Below are positions 6,466 through 28,710 of a stretch of 39,489 bases of DNA, piece by piece. Location: positions 1-39,489 of IMG/VR virus record IMGVR_UViG_3300050139_000359; one strand, given 5' to 3'. A model generated the notes under the pieces. The model had not been told where the DNA came from and did no database searches. It was given only the letters and a program-made list of their open reading frames with translations. The position numbers and the translations under genes were made by a program. This DNA is from a virus. How positions within the stretch are numbered: position 1 is the stretch's first letter; every line of letters starts with the position of its first letter.

Positions 6466-8991
6466 CTACTGGAAGGTAGTGGCGATGTGGTACAGGAACT
6501 TGGTGCTGACCGAACTCAGCGCCGACAGACTCGATACCTCGGTGAACTCAGCGTTTTCGCCAAGAAGGTAGTCACCGACCTCGAAGCCGCCGTTGTCCAG
6601 AAAGCTGCCGAAGCGCACCGAGGGATGAATGACGATGTTGCGGTAGTTCGACCAGTTGCCGGCGTTGTTGGCGATCACGGTCTGAAACGCGTTGCGCATC
6701 GCCGTCTGGTCGAGCATCGTGCCGCCGCGTGTATAGAAGCGGTCGATCCACAACACGTTGTGCCAGGCCCCGGTGGTCGGGTGCGGCACGAACCACCGGA
6801 TATCGTCGCCGTCCATGACGCAGTATTCCGTCACGCCGAGCAAAGCAGCCACTTGCTGCATCATGACGCGGGTCAGCGAAATCGTGATTTCACTGACCGG
6901 CACCCAGACAAGTTGCGAGCCGTTCCAAATCTGCTGCTCACCATTGATCTTTATCGGGGCTGACAGGCTGCCCCATCCCGAGTATCCGGGCCACGGCCGC
7001 TTGTGCCAGGGGTTCGACCAGTCGTACATATCGGTGTTGTAACCCGTGAAGAAATACGTCGCCGGGTTGATCGGCGTCTGGTAACTCGGCTTGGTGATCG
7101 AACGGTTGATCGATGCCAGCGCATTGGCTGACAGATTGAATTGACTCAGGACGTATTCGTAGTCGTAGCGGCCATCCGTGGCGAACTTCTTGATCGCCCC
7201 CCATTCCGTTTCGTACTGCGGTCCCCAATCCGCCAGATTCCAATACCAGCGCTGTGTGGCTTTTTTCGCGGGCAGATTCGTCGGCGTGGTCTCGGGTGCC
7301 GTAGGTGCCGTCAGAAACAGGCTGAAGGAAATATTGCACTGGCCGTTGTACATGCTGATGTAACTGCTGCCCCAGTTGCCATTCCAGCCGTAGTACGTGC
7401 TCAAAGGATGCAATGGGTAGGCATTCCAGTTCGCCATCCCGGAAATCGATACGGCACCGGCCAGATACTTCACTTCGCCCGGTTCCAGATGGACCCAGCA
7501 TTGCCAGCCGGACGCCTGGACGACGACACCGATGGCGAAGTCGTGGTTGTTGCCGACCTTCAGCACACAGCGGAAGGTTGTGATGTTCTTCATGTCGAAC
7601 ACCGCATCGAAGACGATGCCATTGGTGAGTACCGGGCTGCGCGTGTAGGTGTATTCGAACGGCGGGATGATGCCGTCGGTCATGCCCGGGGTATAGCCAA
7701 TCAAACTCGGCATGTGCGAAAGCCAAAGCGACTTCCACGTCATGCGTGTGTCGCCGCTGAGACCGAGCGCATTGCTGGTTACCTGACGCGAGTAGGTCTG
7801 ATAGCCATACGCCAGCAGGATGTAGCGCATCCGGTAGGTGCCGGTCGTCGGCAGTCCGATGGCACCCGGATCCAGCGTGTTGATCCAGTAAAACCAATCG
7901 ACGTTGTAATGCCGGATGACACCGCCAGCGTCGGGCGACATGTTCTCCCAGCCGCTGCCATTGGGCCACCAGCCGTAGCCCGGCATATACCCGGGCGCGT
8001 AGTTACCATGTACGCTGGTGCTGTAGATCTGGCCCGACTCGATGTGCAGGACTTCGATGGCCGCAGCGATATTGAAGAAGCCACCACCTTTCGAGACCTC
8101 GTAGCGCAGCGGCTGAGCCGGATCGATGCGATTAGCCAGTGCCGGCGGAATGGGCCGCTGCTGGAACCGCACCCAAAGATCAGCCAGTTTGTCGATGACC
8201 AGATGCAGGCCGCCAAGGAACTCATAGCCGTTGCCACCGGTAAAGCGCAGGGTGCGCTCGTAGTGGATGAAGTACGGATCGCCTGCCGGCAGGGGATTCG
8301 GCTGATCGCGCCATTCCCAGCGGAAGTTGCCGCCGCCAGGCCCGTGAATCACGTAGCCGAAGTCGATCGGCTCCATGAAGAGTTCGAGCGGTACCAGGGG
8401 TGGCGTACCACCCCCTGAACCACCACCACCGGATCCGCCACCTCCACCACCCGTGCCACCTCCACCCGAACCACCACCGGTGCTGCCGGTGCAGGCATAG
8501 GGATCGTTGTTGTTGCTGCCTGAACCGCTATTCGGATTGAACGGCACGTTCAAACGTGCGGCAAGGCCGGAATTTCCACTCGCGTCGGCATAGCCCAGTG
8601 CGCCGCCATCCAGCCGTGACGCTACCCGGATACTGAGTCCCGGCGTAGGCGTGTCGGTGACATAGCGTCGTGCTTCACAACTACCGACGGACTGACTGAT
8701 CGTGTTATTCAGTTCGGCGGTGACCTGGTCGTAATAGCGCCGGGCCAGCGGACTATGAGCCGGCATCGGCTGCATCCACCAGTAGTAGTTGCCGAACAGC
8801 CAGTAATAGTCGGTACTCGGCCAGTCAAAGATCCACCAGTCGCAGGGCCGCTGGCGATGCACTTCATCTTGCGCATCGGTCCAGGTACAGACGAAGTAGT
8901 TGAGTTTGAGGCCCTCTTTCAGGAGGGCGCGTACCGGGCCGCCAGACGTAACCGGGACTTCAGTCGATGCTTCCTTATCCGGGGCTTGCAT
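6466..8991 (-). CDS. Large aromatic-rich tail protein with poly-Gly/Ser linker
   Basis: 841 aa. The ATG overlaps the tape-measure stop (TGATG). The N-terminal domain (about 1-165) is extremely rich in Trp/Tyr (CDWWIFDWPSTDYYWLFGNY). A natural Gly/Ser linker (about 171-196, encoded near 8478-8406) separates it from a 640-aa beta-rich domain that is also Trp- and Tyr-rich. The layout suggests an anchoring domain, a flexible hinge, and a host-binding or tip domain. No family recognised. It directly follows the tape measure, so it takes the place of the lambda M/L/K region. Confidence 0.7.
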   Translation of the reverse strand: MQAPDKEASTEVPVTSGGPVRALLKEGLKLNYFVCTWTDAQDEVHRQRPCDWWIFDWPSTDYYWLFGNYYWWMQPMPAHSPLARRYYDQVTAELNNTISQSVGSCEARRYVTDTPTPGLSIRVASRLDGGALGYADASGNSGLAARLNVPFNPNSGSGSNNNDPYACTGSTGGGSGGGGTGGGGGGSGGGGSGGGTPPLVPLELFMEPIDFGYVIHGPGGGNFRWEWRDQPNPLPAGDPYFIHYERTLRFTGGNGYEFLGGLHLVIDKLADLWVRFQQRPIPPALANRIDPAQPLRYEVSKGGGFFNIAAAIEVLHIESGQIYSTSVHGNYAPGYMPGYGWWPNGSGWENMSPDAGGVIRHYNVDWFYWINTLDPGAIGLPTTGTYRMRYILLAYGYQTYSRQVTSNALGLSGDTRMTWKSLWLSHMPSLIGYTPGMTDGIIPPFEYTYTRSPVLTNGIVFDAVFDMKNITTFRCVLKVGNNHDFAIGVVVQASGWQCWVHLEPGEVKYLAGAVSISGMANWNAYPLHPLSTYYGWNGNWGSSYISMYNGQCNISFSLFLTAPTAPETTPTNLPAKKATQRWYWNLADWGPQYETEWGAIKKFATDGRYDYEYVLSQFNLSANALASINRSITKPSYQTPINPATYFFTGYNTDMYDWSNPWHKRPWPGYSGWGSLSAPIKINGEQQIWNGSQLVWVPVSEITISLTRVMMQQVAALLGVTEYCVMDGDDIRWFVPHPTTGAWHNVLWIDRFYTRGGTMLDQTAMRNAFQTVIANNAGNWSNYRNIVIHPSVRFGSFLDNGGFEVGDYLLGENAEFTEVSSLSALSSVSTKFLYHIATTFQ
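8406..8478 (-). repeat. Low-complexity Gly/Ser-linker coding stretch
   Basis: On the plus strand this reads as tandem ccacc/ccaccacc units; on the coding strand it is GGN/AGY-rich and encodes a run of Gly with scattered Ser and Thr inside the 841-aa tail protein. Such repeats can change length by slippage. Confidence 0.7.
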
Positions 8992-11960
8992 CACGCCCCC
9001 CGCGACAGTTCGCGCAGGGCCTGCGCCAACTGCATGGCCGTCTGGCGCGAGGACTGCACGGTGTGCGTCTTGCCACCGACGTTGAAGCGCAGATCAATCA
9101 CATCCCGGGTCGGCTCTCCCGAGTCACCCGCCATCATGGCTACCTGGCTGACCGTATTTCCCACCGCGCCACCCAGCGCGAAACGCGCCACGTTGGGAAC
9201 AGGCGGAAGGAAGCCTGCATTGAGCGACGCAAAGAAACTCTCGCCAAATTTGCGCACGCTGGCGGCACGGATGACGAATTCACCATGCGACAGCAAAGCC
9301 GGTACCGAGTCAGAGGTCTCCGTACCGGGCCCGGTAATTCGCCCGGTCATGCGGCGAAAGCCTGTCGCGATCGCTTGACCACCCTCGGCCAGTTTCTGGA
9401 TCAGGCCACCTTGGGCATTGGTATAGACCTTGGTGACGTAGATCGTGTGGTTGCTCGACGTCGGCCGCAGCAGTTCCGACACCGCCGCCCGGTACTGGTT
9501 GAGATCCGGCTGGACGGTGTGCGTGGCCGAGGTCGGGGCCGACAAGACCGTCTTGGCATCCTGCGCAAACGACGCCAGTTGCTGGCGGGGTTGATCGAAG
9601 GAGACGGTGGCCGGAATGTCGACCTTGGCGCTGGCCAGCGTGCTTTTGAGTTGATCGATGTCCGCGATTGCCTTGCTGGTGTCGGCTTCGACCTTGGCCA
9701 GCAGTTCCAGATTGTCGGCGTCGGACTTGAGCTTTTCCAGGGAGGCTTGAGCTTCCTTGGTATCGGCCTGGATCTTCGCCACCAGTTCCAGTGCCTCGGT
9801 CAGCGCCTTGATTTTCTCGATGCCGGTCTTGGCGGCTTCGATGTCGACGTCGAGTTTGAGTTTGTCCTGAGCGAGCAGTTGCTGGCGCAGTTTGTCGAGC
9901 TCATCGGACACAGACGCCAGCGCACGCTTGGCTTCGTCAGCCCCCTGTCCGGCAGCCGTGGCGGCCTGCTTGTGCGCATCACCCAAACCTTTGAGCGCCG
10001 CATCGGCAATGCCGGCGGCCTCCTTGATTTCACCAATGGCAGTTGCGGCAGCCTGGCCTTCTGACACCACGGTCTGGGTGACCGTCTTGCCGTTCTGCTC
10101 GACCTGCTTGGTTACGGCAGAGGCGGTGCGTTCGGCCAGGGAGATCGCTTCCTCGGCGAGTTTCTTGGCCTGGTCGTAGTTGCCTGCCGCGAGCGCGGCA
10201 CGGGCTTGTGCCTGCTTCTCGTCGATCTGGCGCAGCCGGTCCTGATAGGCCGCGTACTCGTCCATGCCCTTGCGGGATAGTTCGCGAATGCGGTCTTCAA
10301 CCGACATGCGCAGGTTGAGCCGGGCTTCATCGGCTGCCTTGGCCGCCTGCAGGTGGCGCTGCTCCTCCGCAATCAACCGGTCGACGGTGGCGCGGTAGGC
10401 CGACTCCAATTGGCTGTAGATGGCGATGCGTGCTTCAACCGCTTGCCGCTCGATCGCCTGCACATCCTGACCGGCGGCACGGGCCAGTGCCACGGCCTGC
10501 CCATAGGAGGCCTTCCAGGCCGACTCCATCTGCTTCGCACCCGCCTCGACGGCTGCGAGCTTTTCGCGTTCGGCGGTCAGAAGATTCTGTGCCGACTCGC
10601 GAATCGCTGCCGACTCTGAGCGAGCCGCATTCTGCGCCGCCGCTTCCTGCCGCTTGTAGTTCGCTTCGATCTCACTGACGCGGGCATCCCAGATCGCCTT
10701 GATATCGGCGGCGACCTGCTTGTAGCTGGCCGAGAGTTGCTTGACTGTCTCTGCCGCCTTCTTGGTTTCGGCCTCGAGTGCCTGCCGGATCGCTTCGCCA
10801 GCCTGAGTAGCTGCCCCCTGAATCGCGCGCAGTGCATCGGCCGTGGCCGGGAGTGACGACTTCAGGCGTTCGGCGGCTTGTGCCGCCAGCATCATCTGGG
10901 TTTTGACGCTCAAGGTGCCGGTATTGGCCAGTTCTTCCATCGCCGCCGTCAGTTGTTGCAACTGCTGACGTTGCCGATTCAGATCGTCGATGGCCTTGTT
11001 GGTCGCCCGGATGTCCTCGACCATCTTGAGGATGCCCCGGCCCATCTCCCAGACGGCCACGGCAGCCAGCACCGGCAGAAAGCGCATCAGGACGGCCTTC
11101 AGCGCCGTTATCACGCCACCCAGTGCCGCGACCGCCGCCACACCGCGCACGGCCAGCACCGTGACGATCACTTCACCCAGCACGCGCAGCACGGTCATGA
11201 TTTCTTCGCCGTGACTGGCGATCTTCACAAGGCCATCAGCCAGAGACTGCAAGGCCGGCAACGCCGCCTCGGCGACCTTCATGGCGATGGCTGACAGTGC
11301 CTGCTTGACCGTGTCGAGCGTGTCGTTGAACTTCTCGGCGGCCTTGGCGGTGTCGCCGCTGATCTCAAGGCCGAGTTCCTTGAACTTCTGCTTAAGTTCC
11401 TCGATGCCGGCCCGCCCTTGGTTGAGGAACGGAATCAGCTCGACACCACTTTTGCCGAAGAGCTTCACCGCAAGTGCCGATTTCTCGGCACCATCCGGCA
11501 TGGCGGCAAAGGCATCGGCCAGATCGAGCAGCACATCTTCGGTCGGACGCAGTTGCCCGGCAGCATCCTTGACTGACACGCCGAGCCGGCTGAAGACTTC
11601 GATTTGTTCCTTGGAGCCACCGGCCGCCGCGACCATCGCGGTCGCCAGTTTCTGCATGCCCTTCGCCAGTCCCTCCAGCGACACACCCGATTGCTCGGCG
11701 ATGGGCTTCAGGAGCGACAGCGATTCGACCGAGATCCCGGTCTTCTGCGACAGCTTGGAGAGATTGTCAGCGGTATCCAGCGCGGCCTTGCCGGCAGCGA
11801 CCAGGGCGCCGAGCGACAGCGCCGCACCCAGTCCGGCCAGCACGCCATTGACCTTGCTGGCGGCCGACGAGAGACCCTCGAGATTGGCCTTGACCTGGGC
11901 GAGCGCCGACCGGGTCTGGTCAACGGCAGTAATCAGGATCTGGGCGCGGTCAGAGGCCAT
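8991..11960 (-). CDS. Tail tape measure protein
   Basis: 989 aa. The N-terminal part has the typical tape-measure opening (SDRAQILITAVDQTRSALAQ, then long Ala/Lys-rich helices), with hydrophobic patches around 45-60 and a longer one around 255-310 that may be membrane-inserting. The central 400 residues are coiled coil rich in Ala, Glu, Gln and Lys. The C-terminal part ends in a small conserved-looking domain with GPGTETSDSVPALLSHGEFV, a motif common near the C-terminus of these proteins. It sets tail length and helps DNA delivery. It overlaps the upstream gene by 11 bases. It is the longest gene in the window, as expected. Confidence 0.93.
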   Translation of the reverse strand: MASDRAQILITAVDQTRSALAQVKANLEGLSSAASKVNGVLAGLGAALSLGALVAAGKAALDTADNLSKLSQKTGISVESLSLLKPIAEQSGVSLEGLAKGMQKLATAMVAAAGGSKEQIEVFSRLGVSVKDAAGQLRPTEDVLLDLADAFAAMPDGAEKSALAVKLFGKSGVELIPFLNQGRAGIEELKQKFKELGLEISGDTAKAAEKFNDTLDTVKQALSAIAMKVAEAALPALQSLADGLVKIASHGEEIMTVLRVLGEVIVTVLAVRGVAAVAALGGVITALKAVLMRFLPVLAAVAVWEMGRGILKMVEDIRATNKAIDDLNRQRQQLQQLTAAMEELANTGTLSVKTQMMLAAQAAERLKSSLPATADALRAIQGAATQAGEAIRQALEAETKKAAETVKQLSASYKQVAADIKAIWDARVSEIEANYKRQEAAAQNAARSESAAIRESAQNLLTAEREKLAAVEAGAKQMESAWKASYGQAVALARAAGQDVQAIERQAVEARIAIYSQLESAYRATVDRLIAEEQRHLQAAKAADEARLNLRMSVEDRIRELSRKGMDEYAAYQDRLRQIDEKQAQARAALAAGNYDQAKKLAEEAISLAERTASAVTKQVEQNGKTVTQTVVSEGQAAATAIGEIKEAAGIADAALKGLGDAHKQAATAAGQGADEAKRALASVSDELDKLRQQLLAQDKLKLDVDIEAAKTGIEKIKALTEALELVAKIQADTKEAQASLEKLKSDADNLELLAKVEADTSKAIADIDQLKSTLASAKVDIPATVSFDQPRQQLASFAQDAKTVLSAPTSATHTVQPDLNQYRAAVSELLRPTSSNHTIYVTKVYTNAQGGLIQKLAEGGQAIATGFRRMTGRITGPGTETSDSVPALLSHGEFVIRAASVRKFGESFFASLNAGFLPPVPNVARFALGGAVGNTVSQVAMMAGDSGEPTRDVIDLRFNVGGKTHTVQSSRQTAMQLAQALRELSRGA

Positions 11961-12603
11961 GGGTGTTCAACTGCTGAAGGATGGAGGCGGACAATTTCGG
12001 TAGTTGTGAACGGACAATACCGGGCAGATCCAGCCGGCCACGCAAGGTGACCGTTGGGACCAGCACGGCAATCGGAATCTCCTGGCCACGTTTGATGGAC
12101 TTGGCACCGGTACGACCACGCTCGGCCCGTTTGAAGCGGCGCAGTTCGGCGGTGTTTTCTTTGATGACTTCCGCCATCAGGATCACCTTGCCGTTCTTCT
12201 GGATGAAGAAGGCGTTACCGGTGCGCATCAGGCCATCGATCACGCGGCGGAAGGCTTTGCGACCCAGACGCTGATGTTCCGGCAGCAAGGGAATCAGCAT
12301 CCGGCCAGCAATCGTGCCGCCCCGCATATGAATGCCGAGCCAGGGAATCTTCGAGCCGATCAGCAGTGCCGGAAACTTCTCCGGGCTGCCAGCGTAGAGC
12401 TTGTGCCGCATTGACCTGACGAAGCCGACCTTCCTGACCTTGAAAGCGGCTTGCATGCGCGACTGCACGGTTTGCGCGATCTCCTTGCCAGCGGACTTCA
12501 TGCCGGCTTCCACCGCCTTGCGGATCGCCCGGCGTTTCTCGGGGATCCAGCTATCGAGCCGCTTCGGATCGAGTAATCCGGAGGTGGTCAGCGATAGCTT
12601 CAT
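11950..12603 (-). CDS. Phage tail assembly protein (DUF6441-like)
   Basis: 217 aa, basic. The beginning (MKLSLTTSGLLDPKRLDSW, then EKRRAIRKAVEAGMKSAGKEI) matches my memory of DUF6441, a phage family encoded between the tail chaperones and the tape measure. The start is embedded in the stop of the frameshift-extended chaperone (ATGA), which supports the reality of that extension. Role unknown; perhaps tail completion or HK97 gp10-like. Confidence 0.7.
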   Translation of the reverse strand: MKLSLTTSGLLDPKRLDSWIPEKRRAIRKAVEAGMKSAGKEIAQTVQSRMQAAFKVRKVGFVRSMRHKLYAGSPEKFPALLIGSKIPWLGIHMRGGTIAGRMLIPLLPEHQRLGRKAFRRVIDGLMRTGNAFFIQKNGKVILMAEVIKENTAELRRFKRAERGRTGAKSIKRGQEIPIAVLVPTVTLRGRLDLPGIVRSQLPKLSASILQQLNTHGL

Positions 12604-13171
12604 GGGTTGAGTTCCTTGAGCAAGGACTTGATCTCGGCACTGCCGCCGTGGGTGGCTGTCACCAGCAAGGCAAAGTGGGCTGCGAGTTGGACCCGGTCAG
12701 CCCGATCTGCGGCTGCGAGGAATGCGCTGACCTGAGCCAGCGTGTAGTTCAGGAGGTCGGCGTAGTGATGTCCGGCCCCGAGGAGCCGGGTGATGGCATC
12801 GCCCCAGGGATCACCGTCGTGATTTGCTGACTCACCCGGGTGATTTCCGGGACCACGCGCTGGATAAAAAAATCGGCATTGGCCCCGAAGATTGCTTCGG
12901 CCAGACGAATGGCCTCATCGATCGCCAGCGCGGCCACCCAGTCGGGCGGACGCCGACAGGCAATGGCGAGTGCCAGAATGACCGATTCACCATCTTCCGA
13001 GAGCAAACGCAGCCAGTCCGGATCGGACGTGACTTTGCTGGCGATAGAACGAACCGCCCGGGCGAAGGCCGGCAGTTCGCCGACCTTGAGTGGGCTGATT
13101 TCCAGGGTTTCGCCGGCAATGACCAGCGGCTCAGGTACGGGCGGCAGCGCTGCGAGGGTATTTTCTGTCAT
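12600..13171 (-). CDS. Tail assembly chaperone, long form by -1 frameshift (gpGT-like)
   Basis: The 140-aa chaperone frame (stop at 12749) contains the heptamer T TTT TTT (12872-12866) in the exact phase needed for a -1 slip (Ala-Asp-Phe-Phe). After the slip the -1 frame stays open for 88 codons, to a TGA at 12602-12600 that overlaps the next gene's ATG. Its product (about 190 aa in total) continues as YPARGPGNHPGESANHDGDP, followed by a helical domain ending LLKELNP. No ATG was found in that frame after the slip, so it has no evident start of its own. This matches the lambda G/GT arrangement, in which the two forms bind tail tube and tape measure during assembly. Confidence 0.8.
12749..13171 (-). 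CDS. Tail assembly chaperone, short form (gpG-like)
   Basis: 140 aa, acidic/helical, located between the tail tube and the tape measure, the invariable place of this chaperone. The helical core (VGELPAFARAVRSIASKV, then WVAALAIDEAIRLAEAIFG) resembles the DUF6631-type chaperones of proteobacterial siphophages. Zero-frame translation ends at 12749 with a Pro/Ser/Thr-rich tail. A fraction of ribosomes is predicted to shift at the T7 run at 12872-12866. Confidence 0.85.
   Translation of the reverse strand: MTENTLAALPPVPEPLVIAGETLEISPLKVGELPAFARAVRSIASKVTSDPDWLRLLSEDGESVILALAIACRRPPDWVAALAIDEAIRLAEAIFGANADFFIQRVVPEITRVSQQITTVIPGAMPSPGSSGPDITTPTS
12866..12872 (-). promoter_or_regulatory. -1 ribosomal frameshift heptamer T TTT TTT
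   Basis: Seven consecutive T on the minus strand, with the first T in the third position of the GAT codon at 12874-12872 (counted from the ATG at 13171). It is the canonical X XXY YYZ arrangement for tandem tRNA slippage. I did not identify a clear downstream pseudoknot. See the finding for the open -1 frame. Confidence 0.8.
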
Positions 13172-13176
13172 GGCGC

Positions 13177-13932
13177 TTAACCCAACTGGACGATGCGACC
13201 AAACTGGCCGAGCACCGCGTCGTATGGTTTGGACGAATCCGCCAGCAGAGAGCCTTCCATTTCGAACTTGTTGAGATCGTTCGAGATGATGTCGAACTTC
13301 TTCAGAGGATCGAAGGCGACGCGGTACAACTCGATCAGCACCTTGGCATTGCTGGCCGCCGTATTGACGCCTTCGAGACGCAGGAAGCGTTCCGGTAAGG
13401 GCTGCGTGAAGATGCCGATCTCGGTCACTGCACCGTAGGTGTAGCTGGCCTTGAAAGGAGCCGTCAGACCCGTCACATCAAGGAACTGGATGGCACCGAA
13501 ATCCACGTCCGCCGTGTAGTGCGTGCCCAGCGTCAGGGTGGCCGGCGTGCCCGCTGAATCGACAATCGACAAGGCCGAGACCTTGGGATGGGCGAGGAAG
13601 TAGCGGTCGCCAACCACCGGGGTGGCACCGCCGATGGTTTCGTTGGTGACGCTGCCGCCCGTGCCAGTTTCGTGATTGCCGTAAAGGGCCAGGGCGAGGT
13701 TTTCTTTGGTGAATTCTTCGATGGTCAGTGCGACGGTGGCGGACTTCTGTTTCACCAGGCGCAGATCGACGGCGCGCTGGCCGGTCTGGCTTTCGTAGTG
13801 CTCGATGACGTCCGTCTTGAGCGATAAGGACAGATCAGCCACGTTGCCCGGCGTGCGAACATTGATCGGTTCGCCATTGACGTTGCGTTCGCCGAGATAG
13901 ACCCGGCCTTGGAAGCTTGCGTAGTAGGACAT
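13177..13932 (-). CDS. Major tail (tube) protein
   Basis: 251 aa, beta-rich (RVYLGERNVNGEPINVRTPG, then DVIEHYESQTGQRAVDLRL), in the expected place between connector genes and chaperone. It would polymerise into the tail tube. The C-terminal 30 residues (KKFDIISNDLNKFEMEGSL) have the look of the conserved end of proteobacterial tail tube proteins. It is preceded by a small gene for a possible connector accessory. Confidence 0.82.
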   Translation of the reverse strand: MSYYASFQGRVYLGERNVNGEPINVRTPGNVADLSLSLKTDVIEHYESQTGQRAVDLRLVKQKSATVALTIEEFTKENLALALYGNHETGTGGSVTNETIGGATPVVGDRYFLAHPKVSALSIVDSAGTPATLTLGTHYTADVDFGAIQFLDVTGLTAPFKASYTYGAVTEIGIFTQPLPERFLRLEGVNTAASNAKVLIELYRVAFDPLKKFDIISNDLNKFEMEGSLLADSSKPYDAVLGQFGRIVQLG

Positions 13933-25838: not shown

Positions 25839-26045
25839 ATGGCCGCCGTCGTCACCACCCAGCAACTCGAAGCGAACTACGAGACGTTCATCGCAGAACT
25901 GACCAAGCTCAGCCGCAAGTACGGGGTCGCGATCCAGTCAGTCGGCGGCGTCTACCTCGCTGACGATCCCAGCGAATTCACCCACGTCCGCTACGATGCC
26001 GACATCACCAGCGGCGACCTCCTGCCGGAGTTCCGCACCGACTGA
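25839..26045 (+). CDS. Small accessory protein, 3' end overlaps the methyltransferase gene
   Basis: 68 aa, ATG after TAAGGAGAT. TTQQLEANYETFIAELTKLS and VAIQSVGGVYLADDPSEFTH suggest a small alpha+beta protein. Its last 108 bases are also antisense to the C-terminal codons of the convergent methyltransferase gene. Second gene of cassette 3. Confidence 0.65.
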   Translation: MAAVVTTQQLEANYETFIAELTKLSRKYGVAIQSVGGVYLADDPSEFTHVRYDADITSGDLLPEFRTD

Positions 26046-27284
26046 TAGCGCGTCGAACGCCACGCCATCGGACTGCCGGGTGGCTTGCGCCCCAGCGTAG
26101 TCTTGCCAGCGGCGCACGATCACATCGACGTACTTCGGATCCAGTTCGATCAGCCGCGCCTTGCGGCCTGACTTGTGCGCCGCGATCATCGTGGTGCCTG
26201 ACCCGCCGAAGGGATCCATCACCACATCACCCGGGCGACTGGAGTTGCGTATTGCCCGCTCCACCAGTTCCACCGGCTTCATGGTCGGGTGCAAATCGTT
26301 CTTCTGCGGTTTCTTGATCTGCCAGACATCGCCCTGGTCGCGATCTCCGCACCAGTGACGATCGGCGCCCTCGGGCCAGCCGTAAAGAATCGGCTCGTAC
26401 TGACGCTGATAGTCGGCACGCCCCAGGGTGAAAGTGTTCTTGGCCCAGATAACAAAGGTGGACCAGTGGCCACCGGCAGCACGGAACGCCGCCTGTAAGC
26501 GGTCAAGTTCGCTCGACGACATGGCCACGTAGATTCCGCCCTGGCAATGCACCACGGTGGGCGTCAGTGCTGCCAACAGAAAATCATAGAACCCGTCGCC
26601 GAGGTTGTCGTTGAGGATCGCGCGATCCTTGCCGCGCATCTTGTCCTTGGCTGAGTTGGCGTAATTGACGTTGTAGGGCGGATCGGTAAATACCATGTCT
26701 GCGATCTCGTCGCCCAGTAAAGTTGCGTAGGCATCGGCATCAGTCGAGTCCCCGCAGAGCACGCGGTGTTCGCCGCAGATCCAGACATCTCCGACCCGGG
26801 AAACGACCGGTCCAGAATCTTCCGGAACGGTATCCTCGTCAGTATCGCCTTCTGTGGTCGTTTCTTCCCCGGCCAGCAGATCAGCGAGTGCATCGGCATC
26901 GAAGCCGGTCAGGGACAGATCGAAGTTGTCATCCTGCAGTGCAGCCAGTTCGACCTGGAGCATGGCGTCGTCCCAGCCTGCGTTCTCGGCGATGCGGTTA
27001 TCTGCGATCACCAGGGCGCGACGCTGAGTCGGAGTCAGGTGATCAAGGATAACGACCGGCACTGTAGCGATGCCGAGTTTCTGAGCCGCAGCCAGACGGC
27101 CATGCCCGGCAACGATAACGCCGTCGCTACCAGCCAGGATCGGATTTGTGAATCCGAACTCGGCAATCGACGCAGCGATCTGTGCCACTTGCGAGTCCGA
27201 GTGCGTCCGGGCGTTGCGAGCATAGGGCACCAGCTTGGCCGTTGGCCACTGCTCGATCTTGTCGGCAAGCCACGAAATCGTCAT
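25938..27284 (-). CDS. ParB-like nuclease domain + DNA methyltransferase fusion (DPPY type)
   Basis: 448 aa. Residues 1-110 form a ParB/Sulfiredoxin-like domain with AGHGRLAAAQKLG (GHGR 60-63) and ADNRIAENAGWD. A linker rich in Asp/Glu/Thr follows, then a beta-class methyltransferase with motif IV DPPYNVNY (201-208), usually adenine-N6 or cytosine-N4, and motif I MDPFGGSGTT (356-365). It would modify phage DNA, possibly against host restriction. The last about 35 residues look like an extra tail that is antisense to the 25839-26045 gene. Start overlaps the stop of the second fusion (ATGA). Confidence 0.93.
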   Translation of the reverse strand: MTISWLADKIEQWPTAKLVPYARNARTHSDSQVAQIAASIAEFGFTNPILAGSDGVIVAGHGRLAAAQKLGIATVPVVILDHLTPTQRRALVIADNRIAENAGWDDAMLQVELAALQDDNFDLSLTGFDADALADLLAGEETTTEGDTDEDTVPEDSGPVVSRVGDVWICGEHRVLCGDSTDADAYATLLGDEIADMVFTDPPYNVNYANSAKDKMRGKDRAILNDNLGDGFYDFLLAALTPTVVHCQGGIYVAMSSSELDRLQAAFRAAGGHWSTFVIWAKNTFTLGRADYQRQYEPILYGWPEGADRHWCGDRDQGDVWQIKKPQKNDLHPTMKPVELVERAIRNSSRPGDVVMDPFGGSGTTMIAAHKSGRKARLIELDPKYVDVIVRRWQDYAGAQATRQSDGVAFDALSVGAELRQEVAAGDVGIVADVGEFAGIVSEVDAAD

Positions 27285-28678
27285 GTCTGTGCTCCCAAGC
27301 GTTCTGCGGCAACCGCATCAAAGGTCTGGCCAGTGGTTGCCAGCGTGACAGGCACCTCCGGGAAGTTCTGCTGGAAGCGCTTGATCGTCACATCGACATA
27401 CTCGGGCGCAATCTCGGTGGCCCGCACTACGCGGCCAGTCCGTTGTGCAGCAAGCAGCGTGGTGCCGGATCCGCAGAACGGTTCGAACACGATGTCGCTG
27501 GCGTCGGTGTAGGTTTCCAGAATGTGCTCTGGCAGTGCCACCGGGAATACCGCCGGGTGATCGATGTCTTGTCCGATCTTTCCCTTGTGCCGCATGATGC
27601 GAATCACGGAATCGGGAATCTTGGTGTCTTGAGTGGGCGTGCCGGCGGCCGTCCAGCCACCGATCGTTCCATCTTTCTTGCGCATGGCCGTGGAACTGCC
27701 ATCCTTGCGTAGATGGGTTTCCTGGCCGGCGAATTTGCAGGGCACGATCTTGTTGGCCTGCCTTGCCTGGCGGTTGAAGTGAAAGACAAACTCGAACGAA
27801 GGCGCCAGCCGACCGTTCCAGTCGCCGGGCAACCCCGGGCCTTGGTCCCAGACGTACCAGGCAAAGCGCCGCCAGCCCTGCGTGCGCATCCAGTCGAGCC
27901 AGCCATCCCAGTACGGAATGACTTCGTTGTCGCGGTGGATCAGACCGAGATTGACCAGCACCTGGCCGTTCGCGGCCAAGGGCAGGTTGGCGAAAACACC
28001 CCGCATCAGGGCATCCCAATCAATGATGGTGTTCGTGTAGTCCCGCTGGTTGCCGTAGGGTGGCGAGGTGAAACACAGCACTGCTAGCTCGCCAGCCATC
28101 AGCGTTTGGACGACGGTCGGATCGGTGGCATCGCCGCAGATCAGGCGGTGCGTGCCGATCTGCCAGACATCGCCAAGGCGAGAGACCGGGTTCGATGGCA
28201 CCTCAGGCACCTCGTCGGCAGCGTCATCCTCGGCATCTGCGGGAGCTTCTTCCTGCAACGCCTGCTCGGCACCGACCAGTAGCTCCTCGATCTCCTCGTT
28301 GGAAAAACCGGTCATGGTCAGGTCGTAACCAGCCTCGGACAACTCGGCCAGTTCGAGCGAGAGCAGTTCCTCGTCCCACCCGGCGTCCAGTGCAAGGCGA
28401 TTGTCGGCAATCACGTAGGCACGTTTCTGTGCTGGCGTCAGGTGGCCAAGTTCGATGACGGGCACCTCAAGCAGATCCAACTTGCGCGCTGCCGCCAGAC
28501 GGCCATGGCCGGCAATGATGCCGTTGGCGCCGTCGACAAGGAGGGGCTGAGTCCAGCCGAACTCGACGATGCTTGATGCCAGCTTGGCGATCTGCGCCTC
28601 GGAATGCGTGCGCGGATTGCGGGCAAAAGGGATCAGCGTCTCGATCTTGCGATACTCGACGTGCAGTTGTTTGGTCAT
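27281..28678 (-). CDS. ParB-like nuclease domain + DNA methyltransferase fusion (TSPPY type)
   Basis: 465 aa from the ATG at 28678. N-terminal ParB-like domain (IAGHGRLAAARKL, GHGR 57-60), acidic linker, then a methyltransferase with motif IV TSPPYG (204-209), usual for cytosine-N4 enzymes, and motif I FEPFCGSGTT. It is a distant paralogue of the neighbouring DPPY fusion. It has no good ribosome site; 9 nt upstream is a terminator hairpin. A GTG seven codons earlier lies inside that hairpin and is less likely. Confidence 0.93.
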   Translation of the reverse strand: MTKQLHVEYRKIETLIPFARNPRTHSEAQIAKLASSIVEFGWTQPLLVDGANGIIAGHGRLAAARKLDLLEVPVIELGHLTPAQKRAYVIADNRLALDAGWDEELLSLELAELSEAGYDLTMTGFSNEEIEELLVGAEQALQEEAPADAEDDAADEVPEVPSNPVSRLGDVWQIGTHRLICGDATDPTVVQTLMAGELAVLCFTSPPYGNQRDYTNTIIDWDALMRGVFANLPLAANGQVLVNLGLIHRDNEVIPYWDGWLDWMRTQGWRRFAWYVWDQGPGLPGDWNGRLAPSFEFVFHFNRQARQANKIVPCKFAGQETHLRKDGSSTAMRKKDGTIGGWTAAGTPTQDTKIPDSVIRIMRHKGKIGQDIDHPAVFPVALPEHILETYTDASDIVFEPFCGSGTTLLAAQRTGRVVRATEIAPEYVDVTIKRFQQNFPEVPVTLATTGQTFDAVAAERLGAQT

Positions 28679-28686
28679 TGGAATGC

Positions 28687-28710
28687 AAAAACCCGCCACG
28701 AGGGGCGGGT
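28687..28710 (-). terminator. Terminator or attenuator hairpin just before the methyltransferase start
   Basis: The minus strand reads ACCCGCC (28710-28704), loop, GGCGGGT (28697-28691), then TTTTG, a textbook intrinsic terminator. The ATG of the TSPPY methyltransferase is only 9 nt further. With so little room for a promoter after the hairpin, it may be a conditional terminator that controls the operon. Confidence 0.78.

Follow-up and report, generated by a model that had tools for sequence, protein, structure and literature searches.

A conserved T TTT TTT heptamer and a predicted G/GT tail-chaperone pair in a putative temperate siphophage

Organization of the tail region

The window, meaning the whole stretch of 39,489 nucleotides that was analysed (IMG/VR record IMGVR_UViG_3300050139_000359), carries a series of tail genes on its minus strand. 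The most upstream of the genes considered here encodes a major tail protein with an Ig-like domain (13177..13932, minus strand; PHROG 807, 4.3e-79). Relatives of this tail tube protein were found in 232 phage records; most of these are Pseudomonas phages of the D3112 and B3 types, Vibrio phages and Stenotrophomonas phages. It is followed on the same strand by an ORF of 140 aa (12749..13171), which corresponds to a G-like tail assembly chaperone, and by an open -1 frame (12600..12866) that partly overlaps it. The gene directly after this extension encodes a DUF6441 protein (11950..12603, minus strand; PF20039, 1e-82), and the gene for the tape measure protein of 989 aa (8991..11960, minus strand) lies one gene further on. 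The tape measure protein was recognized by the PHROG tail length tape measure families, the best named one at 1.7e-45. The overlapping frames accordingly lie downstream of the major tail protein gene and upstream of the tape measure gene, which is the layout of a G/GT pair.

The DUF6441 gene also belongs to PHROG 6367, a family of unknown function, and its start is kept in most of the homologous loci. A tblastn search of 50,697 phage records gave no match to the DUF6441 protein. GT is immediately followed by the tape measure gene in MP38, Suso and Summit, unlike in the window.

Elsewhere in the window, genes for a lambda-type portal, a gpA-type terminase, capsid E and an S49-type head protease were identified, together with a serine recombinase, a primase and an anti-repressor. 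Because of the presence of these genes, the window is, by inference, a temperate siphophage.

Reading frames at the slippery heptamer

The codons at the T7 run were read from the sequence as GAT (12874-12872) TTT TTT ATC, divided as GA|T TT|T TT|T ATC. Within the 140-aa frame, the slippery heptamer T TTT TTT (12866..12872, minus strand) therefore has the correct X XXY YYZ phase. A slip of one base backwards makes TAT, with its first base at 12866, the next codon. From here the -1 frame is open for 88 sense codons (12866-12603), encoding YPARGPGNHPGESANHDGDPWGDAITRLLGAGHHYADLLNYTLAQVSAFLAAADRADRVQLAAHFALLVTATHGGSAEIKSLLKELNP, and it is closed by a TGA at 12602-12600, which overlaps the ATG of the next ORF (12603-12601) as ATGA. 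The coordinates and the phase given in the initial annotation were thus confirmed. The first 118 nt of the extension (12749..12866, minus strand) are used in two frames, and would encode both the C-terminus of G and the N-terminus of the T part.

On the upstream side the -1 frame is closed by a TGA at 12917-12915. The extension had been described as having no ATG of its own; the first ATG, GTG or TTG in the -1 frame of the window is a TTG at residue 67 of the extension. It had also been noted that the extension would be taken for 150 bases of apparent spacer; such an apparent spacer is present, but its length is 145 bases (12604-12748). Gene callers would miss the 88-aa T part, and annotations in this phage group are corrected by the finding.

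A frame of this length may also arise by chance, or an open -1 frame next to a T7 run may result from a sequencing indel. At the composition of this region, 88 codons stayed open in 21.6% of dinucleotide shuffles (P about 0.22), and the open -1 frame by itself is weak and only suggestive evidence. The comparison with homologous loci was decisive on this point.

Conservation and selection

A total of 33 loci was compared, consisting of the window, 31 viral or MAG contigs and one named phage (VW-6B). Searches with the chaperone in viral and genome contigs, together with VW-6B, yielded the 32 further usable loci, whose protein identities are 27-98%; 30 of the 33 loci are distinct at the DNA level. 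Comparison of homologous phages had been proposed as a check in the initial annotation, and both the heptamer and the open -1 frame proved to be kept throughout. T TTT TTT was present in exact form and in the same codon context in 33/33 loci, and each locus has an open, alignable and homologous -1 extension of 86-102 aa. Because of this conservation the heptamer and the extension are real beyond chance. Chance or a sequencing indel is refuted as an explanation by the same heptamer in all loci and by the purifying selection on the extension, and its probability is practically nil.

The codons of the site are invariant among the 32 aligned loci, GAT being used in 31/31 cases where the residue is Asp and TTT in 64/64, and the codons adjoining the heptamer vary synonymously. 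Outside the site, the same genes use TTC for Phe in 94 of 114 cases (82%) and GAC for Asp in 147 of 223. In the stretch that is covered by the -1 frame only, dN/dS was 0.24 in the -1 frame, compared with 1.9 and 2.4 in the remaining two (20 sequences). In the same 20 sequences no stop codon was observed in the -1 frame of this stretch, and stops were present in the other two frames. Judged from these substitutions, the extension is under purifying selection at the protein level, and in the -1 frame only. At one of the loci (L002:3306-3614) the extension is 14 residues longer and has an unrelated end, yet its stop codon is still located at the ATGA overlap.

Alternatively, the -1 frame could be a separate gene, translated from its own non-canonical or reinitiating start and never fused to the chaperone. 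Some homologues do have a possible start in this frame ahead of the site (GTG or TTG), such as a GTG at residue -24. However, the window, loci L002, L004, L006 and L014, and others have no ATG, GTG or TTG from the upstream stop to at least residue 39, and in those loci residue 39 or later is already inside the conserved helices. A separate gene would furthermore leave unexplained why the third codon positions in the heptamer are invariant. An independent start for the T part was rejected, as no ATG, GTG or TTG occurs early enough in the window and in several homologues, and a separate gene is considered highly improbable.

Identity of the chaperone and its extension

The zero-frame protein was assigned to the tail assembly chaperone family PHROG 1442 (1.3e-26), and homologues of it are present in the 32 other loci. 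Profile-profile comparison (hhalign) supported homology of the chaperone to the D3112/B3-type G (E 1.8e-15) and of the extension to the D3112/B3-type T part (E 6.9e-12); the intermediate VW-6B was part of both comparison sets. The extension also matched PHROGs 13355 and 14432. On the basis of selection, profile match and PHROGs, the extension is regarded as a putative T-like domain of GT.

The structural model of the chaperone had a pLDDT of 80. Its best viral match was a 164-aa protein of Stenotrophomonas phage DLP_5 (7.1e-05), and among the weaker matches were several tail assembly chaperones and the "Pre-tape measure frameshift protein G" of Xylella phage Sano. Nothing resembling the chaperone was found among solved structures in a fold and sequence search of the PDB, a point that weighs against the proposed pair. 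The extension was predicted to be helical, with low confidence (pLDDT 65).

Neither part matched a lambda-type G or T Pfam family at E <= 1. The heptamer of lambda, GGGAAAG, is also a different one. Since a sequence match to the lambda G or T families is lacking, the term G/GT-type, as used in the initial annotation, holds for the layout, the functional class and the kinship with D3112-type pairs. In lambda gpG/gpGT the layout, the -1 direction, the position of the site near the 3' end of G and the expected role are alike (PMC5009743). The tail chaperone pair of phage Mu belongs to the same functional class, but the Mu shift is -2 (PMC5009743) and not -1 as in the window. Judged by sequence comparison, the window locus has the features of a G/GT pair: the upstream frame is a member of a tail assembly chaperone family, the slippery heptamer is conserved and sits in frame, close to the 3' end of G, and the downstream frame has no start of its own and is selected at the protein level.

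Slippery sites in related phages

Among the relatives examined, the gene that follows the tail tube gene usually has a slippery heptamer and a -1 extension. The heptamer is TTTTTTC in MP38, PaMx73, Cline, phiSHP3, Suso and pAN, CCCTTTC in B3 and Ps59, and TTTTTTT in VW-6B and Summit. More distant pairs have AAAAAAG (a Vibrio phage) and GGGAAAG (AchV4). An exception was Pseudomonas phage PA_L9 (L046, 3299-3577): its ORF following the tail tube gene yielded no XXXYYYZ heptamer accompanied by a -1 extension. In the window and in the D3112/B3-type relatives the slippery site is located at homologous N-x-x-F-F codons.

The D3112/B3-type pairs (MP38, PaMx73, phiSHP3, B3) are similar to the window pair in their place after the major tail protein, in the homologous chaperone and -1 extension and in the slippery site at the FF codons. 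They differ in having T TTT TTC or C CCT TTC and in having no DUF6441 gene after the extension. The tape measure chaperone pair of Stenotrophomonas phage Summit (MZ326862) shares GAT TTT TTT with the window, and a frameshift product is annotated for it. The tail tube protein of Summit is 44% identical to that of the window, and DLP_5, a relative of Summit, gave the best match in the structural comparison of the chaperone model. The Summit pair differs in that its chaperone has 164 aa and is directly followed by the tape measure gene. Joined products are annotated in MP38, phiSHP3 (gpG/gpGT), Suso, HXX_Dennis and Summit. The T TTT TTC site of PaMx73 has been predicted in print (PMC4378225), SPP1 is credited with UUUUUUC (PMC6316719), and the G/GT mechanism and the roles in lambda have been reviewed (PMC5009743). 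Nothing direct was found in a literature search for the literal heptamer. The arrangement is textbook for long-tailed phages and already annotated in named relatives, and the window locus adds another G/GT pair.

A homopolymeric site can also be used by RNA polymerase, which would add a U in the T7 run so that ribosomes read the altered message unshifted. The run is strictly T7 in this group, and transcript insertions are known at A and T runs, rising exponentially with run length (PMC5574713). The T7 run, however, sits in the phase for tandem slippage. The homologous sites TTTTTTC and CCCTTTC, as well as AAAAAAG and GGGAAAG in the distant pairs, fit slippage of two tRNAs, and due to these non-homopolymeric heptamers at the homologous site of relatives, polymerase slippage is disfavoured as the mechanism of the family. 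A run of 7 nt is also short for efficient polymerase slippage. Transcriptional slippage is therefore seen as a very unlikely source of the fusion.

Proposed expression by ribosomal frameshifting

With a probability of roughly 95%, the window encodes a G/GT tail-chaperone pair whose expression depends on programmed -1 ribosomal frameshifting. The frameshift proposed in the initial annotation was supported by PHROG 1442, the gene order, the conservation in 33/33 loci, the homology to D3112/B3-type pairs and the annotated relatives. From sequence comparison we infer both the slippage and its ribosomal nature; ribosomes very probably slip at the T7 run. Most ribosomes would read 13171-12749 and produce the 140-aa chaperone G. 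A small fraction would slip back one base at T TTT TTT, where both Phe tRNAs could re-pair with UUU. The resulting junction would be ...ANADFF|YPARG..., in a G-T fusion of about 190 aa that ends at the ATGA overlap. If the roles are as in lambda, the tape measure protein would be coated by G and the tail tube protein recruited by the T part of GT (PMC5009743).

The efficiency of slippage is probably a few per cent. In E. coli, U_UUU_UUU is much less shift-prone than A_AAA_AAG, which counts against the site, but low efficiency suffices for lambda-type pairs, where the ratio is 30:1 (PMC5009743). The 33 loci have a fixed T TTT TTT instead of the TTTTTTC or GGGAAAG of better-known relatives, and therefore constitute a natural data set on slippery-site choice. 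Knowledge of tail assembly is unchanged by the finding.

Downstream RNA structure

A stem of 9 bp, 5 nt past the heptamer, was visible in many homologues. It was 79% paired across the homologues, and its covariation was within the range of shuffled alignments. RNAalifold gave no consensus structure downstream of the heptamer across the homologues. A conserved downstream hairpin was consequently rejected, and this negative result for a shared stimulatory structure counts against the proposed frameshift. The 75 nt downstream of the heptamer in the window folded with z -2.55, in a fold that is not common to the homologues; a hairpin is possible in the window. It is conceivable, though very unlikely, that the group fixes U UUU UUU without a conserved stimulator because slippage by RNA polymerase and by ribosomes both feed the fusion.

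Other genes of the window

The tape measure gene is followed by a gene for an 842-aa protein (6466-8994, minus strand) with a long glycine/serine-rich stretch, for which no Pfam or PHROG match was found. Two adjacent and slightly overlapping genes on the minus strand (25938-27284 and 27281-28699) both match the same ParB-like plus DNA methyltransferase families (PHROG 498) and are, from their sequences, apparently a tandem paralogous pair.
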